Shown piece after piece: positions 28,584-34,306 of a stretch of 64,000 nucleotides of DNA. This stretch comes from Pyxidicoccus parkwaysis (GTDB taxonomy: Bacteria > Myxococcota > Myxococcia > Myxococcales > Myxococcaceae), in contig NZ_CP071090.1 in assembly GCF_017301735.1 (NCBI RefSeq), forward strand, positions 1,612,001 to 1,676,000, in the 5' to 3' direction. The translations under genes were made by a program, and so were the position numbers. The notes under the pieces were generated by a model. It was given only the letters and a program-made list of their open reading frames with translations, was not told the origin of the DNA and searched no databases. Position 1 is the first letter of the stretch. The number at the start of each line of letters is the position of its first letter.

Positions 28584-31500
28584 TTACTTCCTGGCCCCGT
28601 CCGAGCGGCGGTTGCGCCGACGGAGGCCGAGCAGGGCGAGCAGCGCCAGGCCGGACGAGGCCGGCGCCGCGCTGCAGCCACCACCCGCGAAGGCGCGGGT
28701 GATTTCCTCGACCGTCCAGTTGTAGACGGCCGGGGAGGCGTCCACGTTTCCGGCCGAGTCAACCGAGCGCACGCGCAGGGTGTGCTCGCCCAGGCCGACG
28801 TCGTAGCTGTTCTCGCAGGCGACGTAGGCGGCGCCGTCCAGGCTGCACTCGTAGTGCACGCCGTCCTCGGTGGAGGCGTACTGGAACGAGGAGTCCCCGT
28901 TGTTGGTGCGGGGGCCCGGGCCACGCGGGATGCTGGTGTCCGGCGCCTGGGTGTCGATGGTGAAGCGGTCCGGCGCCGAGACCGGGCTCGTGTTGCCCGA
29001 GCTGTCGGTGGCGGTGGCCGTCACGGTGTGGGCGCCGTCCGCCAGGGGCGAGGCCGGCACGCAGCTCCACGTCCCGGTGTCGCTGACGACGGCCGTGCAC
29101 ACCACCGTGTTGCCCTCGCGCACCGTCACCGTGGTGCCCGCCTCCGCGGTGCCGGAAATCGTCGGCGTGGAGTCGTTCGTCACCGAGCCGTCCTTCGGGC
29201 CGGTGATGACCGGCGCCGGAGGCGCGGTGGTGTCGGTGGCGATGGTGACCGTCACCGCCGGAGCCGTCTCCGTGGCGCTCAGCGTGGTGGAGGTGAGCTC
29301 CAGCGAGTGAGAGCCGTCCGGCACGCCCGTCAGCGTGCACGTCCAGTGGCCGGTGGCGTCCACCACGGCGGTGCAGGCCGGGGTGGTGCCGCCGTCGACA
29401 TACACGTCGATGGTGGCGCCCGGCGTGCCGGTGCCGCCGATGCCCGGACCCGAGGTGCCGCCCGGGGTCGGCTGGGTGAGCACGGGGAGGAGCTGGCAGA
29501 TGGACAGCGCGTCCACGCGGTACGTCACCGCCGTCTCCGTGTTGTTGTTCTGGTCGCAGTCGACGTCCACCAGGGCCAGGCGCACGTCGCCCGTGGCCGC
29601 GTCGAAGTCACGCTTCAGCGGGAAGCCCAGCGTCATGGCGGCGGCGCGCGTGGCCGCGGCGGTGCCGTTGTCCTTGACGAAGCCCTGCGAGAAGGACTGC
29701 GTCCCGTTGCCCGGGTTGGCGTTGACGCCGAAGACGCCGGGGTACCAGGTCGTGGTGCCCGAGTAGCTGACGGCGCCGGACACGTAGTGCATCCGGTAGC
29801 GGCCCGGGACGGTCAGCGAGGCCTGGATGGCGCTCGCCGGCAGGACAGGGGCGTTGACGTCCGTTACCTGCGTGCACTGGCTGCGGCCCAGGCGGGTGAA
29901 GAAGCTGACCACGCCGGTGTTCTGGCAGCCGTAGCCACTCTCGATTTTGCAGGTGGCGCTGCAGCCGTCGCCCGCGGTGGTGTTGCCGTCGTCGCACGCC
30001 TCGGAGGCCGCCTTGACGCCGTCACCGCACGTCACCGCGCACACCGACGGGTTGCCGGTGCAGCTGTAGCCCGTCTCGACTCCGCACGACGCGGAGCAGC
30101 CGTCCAGGCCGGTGGCGTTGCCGTCGTCGCACTGCTCGCCCTCGTCGATGTTGCCGTTGCCGCAGCCGGTGGGGGCGGCGCAGCGGTCCGTGACGGGGTT
30201 GCAGTAGCCGCTGTCGCAGACGCCGGAGGCCATGCACGCCTGGCCAATCTCCCACAGGCAGCGCGGCGAGCAGGTGTCGCCGCTGCTCAGGTTGCCGTCG
30301 TCGCACACCTCGTTGCCGGCGACGACGCCGTCACCGCAGGAGGTGGTGCAGACGCTGGGCTGGCCGATGCACGAGTAGCCGCTCTCCTGGGCGCAGGTGC
30401 TGCTGCACCCGTCGTTGCTGGTCTGGTTTCCGTCGTCGCACTGCTCGCCGGACTGGAGGGTGCCGTTGCCGCACGTGAGCACGCAGGCCTGGCCCGGGGT
30501 GGGGCACGTGTAGGGCGGCTCCACGACGGTGCAGGTCGAGTTGCAGCCGTCGCCGTTGTTGGTGTTGCCGTCGTCGCACGCCTCGTTGCCGGTGCGGATG
30601 CCGTCGCCGCAGACGGTCTGGCAGGCGCTGGGCGCGCCCGAGCAGCTGTAGCCCGTCTCCACGCGGCAGCCCTGGTTGCAGCCGTCGTTGTTGTTGGTGT
30701 TGCCGTCGTCGCACGTCTCGTTGGCGTCCAGCGTGCCGTTGCCGCACGACAGGGTGCACACGGACGGGCCGCTGGCCGGGGCGCTGCACGCGTAGCCCGG
30801 CTCGACGCGGCACTCGGTGGCGCAGCCGTCGCCCGAGTTCAGGTTGCCGTCATCGCACTGCTCACCGGGGTTGACGGTGCCGTTGCCGCACGTCTGCGTG
30901 CAGGCCTGGCCCGGAGTGGGGCAGGAGTAGCCCAGCTCCAGCGTGCAGGCGACGGAGCAGCCGTCGTTGGAGCGGGTGTTGCCGTCGTCGCACAGCTCGC
31001 CGGGGTTCAGCGTGCCGTTGCCGCACAGCGGGGTGCACACGGAGGGGCTGGTGCCCACGCACTCGTAGCCGCGCTCGATGCGGCACGCCGCGGAGCAGCC
31101 GTCCGAGCCGTTGATGTTGCCGTCGTCGCACTGCTCACCGGCGTCGACGGTGCCGTTGCCGCACGTCGCCACGCAGGCCTGGCCCGGGGTGGGGCAGGCA
31201 TGGCCGGCCTCGACGCGGCAGCTCGCGTTGCAGCCGTCGTTGCTGTTGGTGTTGCCGTCGTCGCACTGCTCACCGGGGTTCAGCAGGCCGTTGCCGCACG
31301 TGCGGGCGCAGGAGCTGGGCGAGCCCGCGCAGCCATAGCCCGCCTCGATGGCGCAGGTGGCGCTGCAGCCGTCGTTGTTGGCGGTGTTGCCGTCGTCGCA
31401 CTCCTCGCGGGGGGACACCGCGCCGTCGCCGCAGCGGTCGTCGTACGCGTCCACGAAGAGGTAGCGGAACGCGTTGGGCTCCGTCTCCTCGTTGTCGTTG

Positions 31501-32458: not shown

Positions 32459-34306
32459 TCACTTCTCGATGGTGTCGGCGGAGGGGTTGCCCTGCTGCGT
32501 CGTCACGCCCTCGGCATCACCGACGATGTGGAACTCCACGCGGCGGTTCTTCGCGCGGCCTTCCTTGGTCTTGTTGTCCGCGATGGGCTTCTCGGGACCG
32601 AAGCCCTTCGGCTCCAGGCGCTCGCGCGCCACCTTCTTGTCGACGAGGTACTTCACCACCGCCTCGGCGCGGCGCTGCGACAGGTCGAGGTTGTACTCGG
32701 CCTTGCCCGTGTTGTCGGTGTGGCCCTCGATGCGCATCTTCTCGATTTCGGGGTGGGTGCCGAGGATGCTCGCCACGTTGTCGAGCAGCTTGTAGCTGCG
32801 CTGGGCGATGACGTCCTTGTTGTTCTCGAAGTAGACCGTCTCCAGGATGCGGATCTGCCCCTCGCCAATCTGCGCGAGCTGCTTCTCCTTGCAGCCGTTG
32901 TTCTTCACTGTGCCGGGCTCGTCCGGGCAGTTGTCCAGGCGGTCCACGATGGTGTCGCCGTCGCGGTCCTTGTCCGGGCAGCCGCGGTTCTCCTTCGGGC
33001 CCGCCTCGTTCATGCAGGCGTCGCGCGCGTCGGCGATGCCGTCCTTGTCGTTGTCCAGGTCGGGGCAGCCGTCGGTGTCCTCGAAGCTGTCCAGGTCCTC
33101 CGCCTGCTTGGGGCAGGCGTCCTTCGAGTCGGCGATGCCGTCCTTGTCGGTGTCCGGGTCATCCGGGCAGCCGTCCTCGTCCTCGAAGCCGTTCACGTTC
33201 TCCGGCTGGGAGGCGCAGCGGTCCGCGAGGTTGAGGATGCCGTCGTTGTCATCGTCGCCGTCGGCGCAGCCGTTGAGCTGGGCGAGGCCCTTGGTGGACG
33301 GGCAGCGGTCCGCGACGTTCTTCACGCCGTCGCCGTCAGCGTCCAGGTCGGGACACTGGGAGACCTCGTAGGGCTGGCCCTCCACACAGCGGCGCGCCGC
33401 GTGGGAGTCCGTGCCGAAGTTGATGCCCGCGAGCACGCGGAAGTTGGGGGTGCCGGGCGTCTGGCCGAAGCCGGGGCCGCCCATGAGGTAGACCTCGGAG
33501 CCGTTGCCGGTGGGCGCGCGCAGGCCGAGCAGCACCTCCAGGGACTCCGGCGCGTCCGCCACCGGCAGGGTGCCGCGCACCACCACTTCCTCCTTGAGGC
33601 CGAAGAGGCCGGCGGAGAGGTTCACGCCGCCGTTCATCTCCACGCCCATCTCGTCGCGAAGCGGCTTTGTGTTGGGGGACAGCGCGTACGTCTTGGTGCG
33701 CACCAGCGCGCCCACGTCCGCGCCCACGCGCCAGGTGCCGCCCAGCGACTTGCCGGCGCCCAGGCGCGGCGAGAAGACGAAGCCGTCGTCCTTGGTGAGC
33801 GTGTCGGCGTTGCCCAGGGGCAGCGCCACGCCCAGGTGCACGCCGAGGTCCAGCGGTGCGTCATTGCGCTCGGACAGGATGCCCGCGCGGCCCTGCAGCC
33901 ACGGGGTTCCGAGGGCCGCCGTGTCCGGCGTGGCCACGCCCAGCGGCGAGGTGTCCGGGCCCCACTGGGCCACCACGGGCACCTGCGCGCCGAGCTCCAG
34001 CCAGTCGGTGACGGCGTACGCGCCGCTCAGGTGCACCGTCACGCGGTCCGTGACGATGACGCCCTGCCGCTCGTCATTCTGCAGCAGCACGAGAGGCTCG
34101 TTCTCGTAGTGCGCGGTGAAGGCGAGGCGATACTCGCCCTTGCCCAGAAGGTCGCCGGTGGACAGCACGAGGCTGTCCCGCGCGCCGGGGTTGAGCTGCA
34201 AGCGCTCCAGTTCCACGCTGGGGATGCGCTGAGCCTGGGCCTGGACACTGGATGCCCAGAGGACCGCCAGTCCCCCGAGCCAAAGATGATTCCTGCGTAG
34301 AAACAC
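32459..34306 (-). CDS. OmpA-family outer-membrane protein with TSP3 calcium repeats
   Basis: A 615-residue protein. The GTG at 34306 is chosen because GGAGG precedes it by seven bases and it gives a clean signal peptide (MFLRRNHLWLGGLAVLWASS, then VQAQA). Residues about 30-320 look like a beta-barrel or beta-rich domain. Five thrombospondin type 3-like calcium repeats follow (DLDADGDGVKNVADRCP and relatives). The C-terminal 110 residues are an OmpA peptidoglycan-binding domain with EGHTDNTG and NLDLSQRRAEAV, including the Asp and Arg that bind diaminopimelate. TraB of Myxococcus has the same TSP3/OmpA plan and is encoded with the Cys-rich TraA; here the Cys-rich partner follows after 11 bases. 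Confidence 0.9.
   Translation of the reverse strand: MFLRRNHLWLGGLAVLWASSVQAQAQRIPSVELERLQLNPGARDSLVLSTGDLLGKGEYRLAFTAHYENEPLVLLQNDERQGVIVTDRVTVHLSGAYAVTDWLELGAQVPVVAQWGPDTSPLGVATPDTAALGTPWLQGRAGILSERNDAPLDLGVHLGVALPLGNADTLTKDDGFVFSPRLGAGKSLGGTWRVGADVGALVRTKTYALSPNTKPLRDEMGVEMNGGVNLSAGLFGLKEEVVVRGTLPVADAPESLEVLLGLRAPTGNGSEVYLMGGPGFGQTPGTPNFRVLAGINFGTDSHAARRCVEGQPYEVSQCPDLDADGDGVKNVADRCPSTKGLAQLNGCADGDDDNDGILNLADRCASQPENVNGFEDEDGCPDDPDTDKDGIADSKDACPKQAEDLDSFEDTDGCPDLDNDKDGIADARDACMNEAGPKENRGCPDKDRDGDTIVDRLDNCPDEPGTVKNNGCKEKQLAQIGEGQIRILETVYFENNKDVIAQRSYKLLDNVASILGTHPEIEKMRIEGHTDNTGKAEYNLDLSQRRAEAVVKYLVDKKVARERLEPKGFGPEKPIADNKTKEGRAKNRRVEFHIVGDAEGVTTQQGNPSADTIEK

Follow-up and report, generated by a model that had tools for sequence, protein, structure and literature searches.

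The outer-membrane protein TraA carries a type I signal, a PA14-like domain, Cys repeats of the TIGR04201 family and a MYXO-CTERM tag (PMC3325183, PMC6372800). TraA and TraB occur in a 1:1 ratio, and TraA has been modelled on the barrel of TraB, the OmpA domain of which is thought to bind peptidoglycan (PMC12045341); when this domain is removed from TraB functional adhesins are kept and exchange is lost (PMC8651087). MYXO-CTERM proteins in general are cut by MrtX, probably lipidated, and use type II secretion to reach the surface (PMC11980579). TraAB has been studied as a singular kin-recognition machine, and one fused relative is in print, MXAN_5598, which is noted as similar to TraA and TraB combined (PMC11980579). 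Here we describe two adjacent genes from Pyxidicoccus parkwaysis, one for an OmpA protein with TSP3 repeats and one for a Cys-rich MYXO-CTERM surface protein. They lie in a stretch of 64,000 nucleotides that was analysed as a whole (the window; contig NZ_CP071090.1, positions 1,612,001 to 1,676,000) and that belongs to a genome consisting of a single contig of 13.21 Mb. The genes probably encode a dedicated surface-display pair, which would form one branch of a family of MYXO-CTERM proteins with TraB-like barrels, TraAB being another.

Both open reading frames (ORFs) are on the minus strand; the last base of the OmpA ORF is 32459 and the ATG of the Cys ORF is at 32447, which leaves a gap of 11 bases. 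This agrees with an earlier, sequence-only reading of the stretch, which had also recognized the MYXO-CTERM tag and the Ig-like domains of the Cys-rich partner. The OmpA protein matched Pfam OmpA (6.9e-25) and TSP_3 (1.8e-14). The Cys protein matched Pfam DUF4215 in 14 stretches (4.3e-91, 299.5 bits) and Big_13 (1.6e-24), and the NCBIfam model TIGR02232 with 609.6 bits over 14 stretches, above the cut-off. The MYXO-CTERM model TIGR03901 gave 20.6 bits in the genome scan (cut-off of 20) and was unlisted in the protein hmmscan at E ≤ 0.1. The Cys repeat is the same as that of the Myxo_disulf_rpt/DUF4215 proteins (TIGR02232, PF13948); elsewhere in the host genome TIGR02232 was found in 4 places, none of which coincides with its 8 genes having both a barrel and an OmpA match. 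The analysis added three elements to the earlier description: a second insert in the Cys protein (residues 843–985), an N-terminal lipobox and a conserved kinase gene downstream.

The architecture is shared with TraAB, as the sequence-only reading had noticed: the gene of a TSP3-OmpA protein with a TraB-like N-terminal part lies beside that of a Cys-rich MYXO-CTERM surface protein. Membership in TraAB did not hold. The window OmpA protein, in which TSP3 and OmpA are present and the barrel is assigned by profile match only, scored 251.6 bits with the TraB model NF033763 (cut-off of 700), compared to 1013.9 bits for the host genome's own TraB. The host genome's own TraA scored 1142.1 bits (cut-off of 750) and contains TIGR04566 plus nine TIGR04201 stretches; all three TraA models (NF033759, TIGR04566 and TIGR04201) were listed for this protein, whereas none of them was listed for the window Cys protein at E up to 0.1, including TIGR04566, which describes the N-terminal part of TraA. 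In a maximum-likelihood tree of barrel-OmpA proteins (42 rows), the window orthologs (10), the TraB proteins (5) and the fusions of the MXAN_5598 type (5) each formed a clade with a support of 100/100, and a 100/100 branch parts TraB's side from the window's side; the midpoint root is a mere drawing convention, long branches occur in two rows and 6 of the 39 inner branches are open. The OmpA protein is thus found in a clade of its own, outside TraB.

Two simple explanations were rejected on these grounds. The pair as a copy of TraAB is ruled out by the low TraB score, the separate clade, the different Cys repeats and the presence of the host's own traAB, and the Cys protein as a TraA with extra repeats by the profile scans and by the hhalign comparison of its first insert (see below). 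The differences from TraAB extend further: the window Cys protein has TIGR02232 repeats where TraA has TIGR04201, and a lipobox where a type I signal is described for TraA. The gene order is reversed, with the OmpA gene first, as had been noted before; in the host genome's own traAB, traA precedes traB. Finally, the window pair has a kinase gene as neighbour and is without the polymorphism between species that is seen in TraA.

The conservation of the pair was determined from a family search with the OmpA protein, which yielded, among the matches listed, 52 ortholog loci in 51 of 96 genomes (at least about 59% identity to the OmpA protein within the matched part, partial matches included). The named loci L029–L036 are largely duplicates of genomes in the G series and were left out of this count. 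The Cys gene was located directly 3' of the OmpA gene and on the same strand in all 52 loci, which speaks against chance. The lipobox was found in 51 loci, the exception being G060, where the called ORF starts downstream of it; the MYXO-CTERM tag was likewise visible in 51, with a shorter ORF, perhaps due to a frameshift, as the exception. The first insert was recognized by motif in 48 loci. The Cys ORFs range from 614 to 1616 amino acids (aa), the longest including an upstream extension, and the match of the shorter orthologs to the window Cys protein stops near residue 850, ahead of the Ig region.

The resemblance between this locus and TraAB turned out to be part of a wider pattern than the sequence-only reading had supposed, as TraB-like barrel genes recur beside MYXO-CTERM genes. 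In five complete genomes (G000, G063, G069, G018 and G034), 37 genes have matches to the TraB model that cover the barrel as well as the OmpA part; the E-value limit was 1e-3 for G000 and 1e-9 for each of the others. A TIGR03901 tag was taken as near when it was on the same strand and within 6.5 kb, and its E-value had to be 0.5 or less; since the best 150 of 258–351 candidates per genome were scored, the tags are undercounted. By this measure 23 of the 37 genes are near a called tag (6/8, 5/7, 2/7, 3/6 and 7/9, in the order of the genomes given above). Random rotation of the tags gave a mean of 0.12–0.17 per genome, and the observed counts were met in 4, 23, 307, 16 and 8 of 20000 rotations, respectively. 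As a control, those OmpA genes of the five genomes that lack a barrel match were scored, and 0 of 44 were near a tag. Barrel-only matches, one each in G000, G069, G018 and G034, are in neither count. Reading of the sequences adds six tags that were missed by the model and brings the number to 29/37; the control applies to the 23/37, because the reading by eye and script covered barrel genes only. The passengers comprise TraA, AgmC-type Ig proteins, Kelch/HYR proteins and the window Cys-rich protein. In 8 of the 29 cases the two partners form a single ORF with a passenger, an internal MYXO-CTERM-like tag, a second stretch resembling a signal peptide, and the barrel-OmpA part, an arrangement which suggests processing into two proteins. 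Fusions of the MXAN_5598 type are present in all five genomes and those of another clade in three.

The fused ORFs fall into two separate clades, L088:25-8454, L149, L155, L160 and L162 in one and L150, L152 and L166 in the other. The MXAN_5598 type, assigned by architecture and by an FtsZ-like ORF seen by eye beside it in L088 rather than by the sequence of MXAN_5598 itself, is like the window pair in combining a MYXO-CTERM passenger with a barrel and an OmpA domain, and differs in being one fused ORF with an Ig passenger and a barrel on TraB's side of the tree. AgmC-type Ig proteins with their OmpA gene (NF047640) share with the window the order of an OmpA gene followed by a MYXO-CTERM gene and a barrel on the window's side; the difference is again an Ig passenger, and TIGR02232 was unlisted in the three that were scanned. 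A barrel-only TraB-like match in G034 (G034:C1:3857067-3857948) has a weak MYXO-CTERM tag just upstream, both within an open frame of 1237 aa, and is possibly a variant without OmpA domain. In outer-membrane vesicle proteomics MXAN_5042 and MXAN_5598 appear as OmpA domain proteins (PMC4158809), and a barrel-prediction table includes MXAN_5042 as positive by one of six programs (PMC3222651); MXAN_5042 is a candidate for the M. xanthus ortholog of the window OmpA protein. A search of the open-licence literature gave no account of a general pairing of barrels with MYXO-CTERM proteins or of the window pair, and nothing on AgmC or on the kinase context; the names of the repeats gave matches judged to be unrelated.

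In the arrangement that we propose, the Cys protein would be exported, probably lipidated at the Cys of the lipobox, processed at the MYXO-CTERM tag and kept on the outer face of the cell. The TIGR02232 repeats would make up a stalk, stiffened by disulfides, that bears the two inserted domains. The OmpA protein would hold the base of the stalk with its barrel in the outer membrane and be tied to the peptidoglycan via the TSP3 repeats and the OmpA domain. From its periplasmic side, the transmembrane kinase encoded next door may sense what state the complex is in. The roles of base and stalk are proposed by analogy with the published work on TraAB, and the notion of a two-partner family is built on gene order, fusions and homology. 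A more far-reaching version, which we put forward tentatively, makes TraAB a branch of a general myxobacterial two-partner system, in which every genome would have several TraB-like barrels and most of these, by pairing or fusion, their own lipid-anchored passenger (PA14, Kelch, Ig or Cys-stalk) on one base tied to peptidoglycan, and the window branch, with lipidation signals at both ends and wired to a kinase, would be a conserved contact sensor. If the pairing is general, it suggests how TraAB originated, leads one to expect a partner for several surface adhesins and offers natural variants with which adhesion and membrane fusion could be told apart. Lacking TraA-like polymorphism between species, the window pair is also useful for comparison with TraAB.

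A number of observations weigh against a dedicated display pair. No experiments on the window pair were found in the open-licence literature. The AlphaFold model of the OmpA protein (mean predicted local distance difference test, pLDDT, of 36.6) was too poor to confirm the barrel, and because of this the barrel rests on the profile match to TraB. In the metagenome-assembled genome (MAG) of Myxococcales bacterium 68-20 (L032), the locus that contains the Cys gene lacks an OmpA relative; the best OmpA match of this genome lies elsewhere and has 39% identity. The enrichment of tags was weakest in G069, with 2/7 by the model, and no partner was found for 8 of the 37 barrel genes, including all five of one clade. 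The pattern weakens at lower identity: among nine more distant OmpA loci (L061–L069), a same-strand candidate was seen only in L068, at about 2.2 kb; L069 is cut by a contig end. The kinase gene was not next door in 6 of the 52 ortholog loci and 3.3 kb away in 2, and in another 2 the contig ends. As side observations, the Cys-rich relative in L032 is about 60% identical in spite of the distance of this MAG, possibly as the result of transfer, and the partnerless clade consists of G000:C1:7590061-7591671 and its relatives in the other four genomes.

Alternatively, stalk, peptidoglycan-bound barrel protein and transmembrane TPR kinase could form a single signalling chain that spans the envelope and senses contact or stress. 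We regard this as unlikely, although a link between pair and kinase, judged from position and topology, is plausible. The kinase gene adjoins the Cys gene in 42 of the 52 loci, across the genus and in other genera of the family, and the minus strand showed no terminator-like site from 28300 to 34900. The kinase domain is followed by one transmembrane segment and a TPR-rich part; of 43 orthologous kinases, 41 showed this segment behind the kinase domain, and in G014 and G015 none was found at threshold (44 rows were examined, of which G032 is a different kinase; the kinase of G024, with fewer than 900 aa, was left out). The argument is one of adjacency, however, which the six loci with the pair and no kinase next door do not share, and the two kinases without a detected segment also count against it. 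Moreover, kinases bearing TPRs are common in myxobacteria.

The sequence-only reading had proposed a second recognition or adhesion system, and it had named an OmpA protein grouping outside TraB, an insert unrelated to TraA and a lack of strain variability as outcomes that would speak against the likeness to TraAB; what we found is largely of this kind. Variation was compared in 27 genomes of the genus, one genome per species, with TraA as the positive control. The N-terminal part of TraA had a mean pairwise identity of 67.9% and the rest of the protein 77.4%. For insert 1 of the Cys protein this value was 79.1%, close to the flanking repeats (82.5% and 75.9%) and the barrel region (77.1%). 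In the pair G075/G078 the N-terminus of TraA dropped to 53% versus 94% for the rest of TraA, in keeping with the known allele types of TraA, and insert 1 remained at 93% versus 95% for the repeats. The values for insert 1 in the listed close pairs were 83–99%, and the drop in TraA was not seen in every close pair. In 8 relatives, the distant MAG included, insert 1 showed 72–89% identity to the window sequence. Across the phylum insert 1 was found in 49 of 195 genomes, in one copy each, and in 5 of 90 genera. The comparison with the TraA variable domain that had been suggested was made with hhalign and gave no relation between insert 1 and this N-terminal domain of TraA (probability of 0.1). 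On the identities in close pairs, insert 1 as a polymorphic recognition domain was rejected at the level between species.

Insert 2 and the Ig region, with mean pairwise identities of 67.8% and 63.9% (52.5% and 51.1% when gaps are counted), are the most divergent parts, and in G057/G067 insert 2 was 35% identical versus 92% for the barrel; this indicates that the C-terminal part is less constrained. Together with the architecture shared with TraAB, this divergence is what can be said for a second receptor for kin recognition or outer-membrane exchange, in which one of the two inserts or the Ig region would bind to itself on a neighbouring cell in an allele-specific manner, as does the variable domain of TraA. 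Such a receptor is quite improbable, given that the identity of insert 1 stays with that of the adjoining repeats in close pairs where TraA drops, that insert 1 is unrelated to the TraA domain, that the Cys repeats belong to another family and that the host genome already has its own traAB. The window pair is thus probably not involved in kin recognition, and of the two functions suggested before, adhesion is the better reading. The lack of TraA-like polymorphism between species points to a conserved ligand, and for the dedicated display pair adhesion or mechanical anchoring to such a ligand, perhaps a glycan, is the most likely function, ahead of an allele-specific recognition of kin.

The fold of insert 1 was assessed in the light of the lectin-like nature ascribed to it before. 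An insert is indeed present after the third repeat (residues ∼181–337), but its lectin-like character was not established. No Pfam match was obtained for any of 9 sequences, and a search of the PDB by sequence gave no match at E up to 10. AlphaFold, run with 9 sequences, gave a mean pLDDT of 59.3 and a model that is usable from about residue 67 on, which is probably a beta sandwich. The best Foldseek match was a CBM35 domain at 9.2e-03, none having an E-value below 0.001, and VIA-align gave a best Z of 6.7 with GH2 sugar-binding-type domains, a level that may reflect the mere common sandwich; these matches are too weak to name the ligand. PA14 was not among the fold matches listed for insert 1, which carries no evidential weight.

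A lack of any joint function, with the OmpA protein serving as an anchor to peptidoglycan in general and the Cys protein acting on its own at the surface, so that the genes are mere neighbours, would fit the L032 locus and the barrel genes for which no partner was found, but is very improbable in view of the adjacency kept in every ortholog locus, the enrichment specific to barrel-bearing OmpA genes and the fusions in two clades.

Features of the locus and of the two encoded proteins; positions are those of the window.
Feature	Position	Strand	Basis or remark
OmpA/TSP3 outer-membrane protein, 615 aa	32459-34306	minus	TraB-like N-terminal part, TSP3 repeats, C-terminal OmpA domain
Predicted beta-barrel region, OmpA protein residues ~40-310	33377-34189	minus	matches TraB model positions 56-379 together with TSP3
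TSP3-type repeats, OmpA protein residues ~311-480	32867-33376	minus	Pfam TSP_3; tandem repeat 33014-33250
OmpA domain, predicted peptidoglycan anchor, residues 492-588	32543-32833	minus	Pfam OmpA 6.9e-25
Cys-rich MYXO-CTERM surface protein, 1287 aa, 94 Cys	28584-32447	minus	ORF and profile matches
Lipobox LTGC, Cys protein residues 20-23, predicted lipoprotein signal peptide	32379-32390	minus	sequence
First TIGR02232/DUF4215 repeats, Cys protein residues 49-168	31944-32303	minus	profile matches
Insert 1, Cys protein residues 181-337, conserved beta-rich domain	31437-31907	minus	weak best matches to CBM35/GH2 sugar-binding-type jelly rolls
Tandem TIGR02232/DUF4215 repeats, Cys protein residues 338-842, predicted disulfide-stiffened stalk	29922-31436	minus	profile matches
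Insert 2, Cys protein residues 843-985, more variable	29493-29921	minus	alignments
Ig-like region, Cys protein residues 986-1240	28728-29492	minus	Pfam Big_13/Big_6; most variable region
MYXO-CTERM sorting tag: GGGC, hydrophobic stretch, Arg-rich tail	28611-28685	minus	TIGR03901, 20.6 bits
Ser/Thr kinase, one transmembrane segment (residues 437-460), TPR-rich C-terminal part predicted periplasmic	24831-28580	minus	start codon uncertain

The lipobox of the Cys protein was compared with the N-termini of 20 other MYXO-CTERM ORFs of the host genome, and a convincing one was seen by eye in 2 (L181 and L182). A script flagged L181 and L183, the latter judged to have a type I signal, and missed L182; in a few ORFs (L184 and L188) it detected no clear signal peptide. 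A lipobox and a MYXO-CTERM tag occur together in L081:4096-7653, L181, L182 and the window Cys protein, which could have lipid anchors at both ends. Next to the pair, on the plus strand, a divergent gene (34731-36397) encodes a DJ-1/PfpI plus AraC-type regulator, and the ORF that follows is DJ-1/PfpI-like by eye. Further along the window, a lipoprotein-type ORF on the minus strand (19601-20623) has collagen-like GPQ/GDT repeats and a C-terminal part containing Cys.

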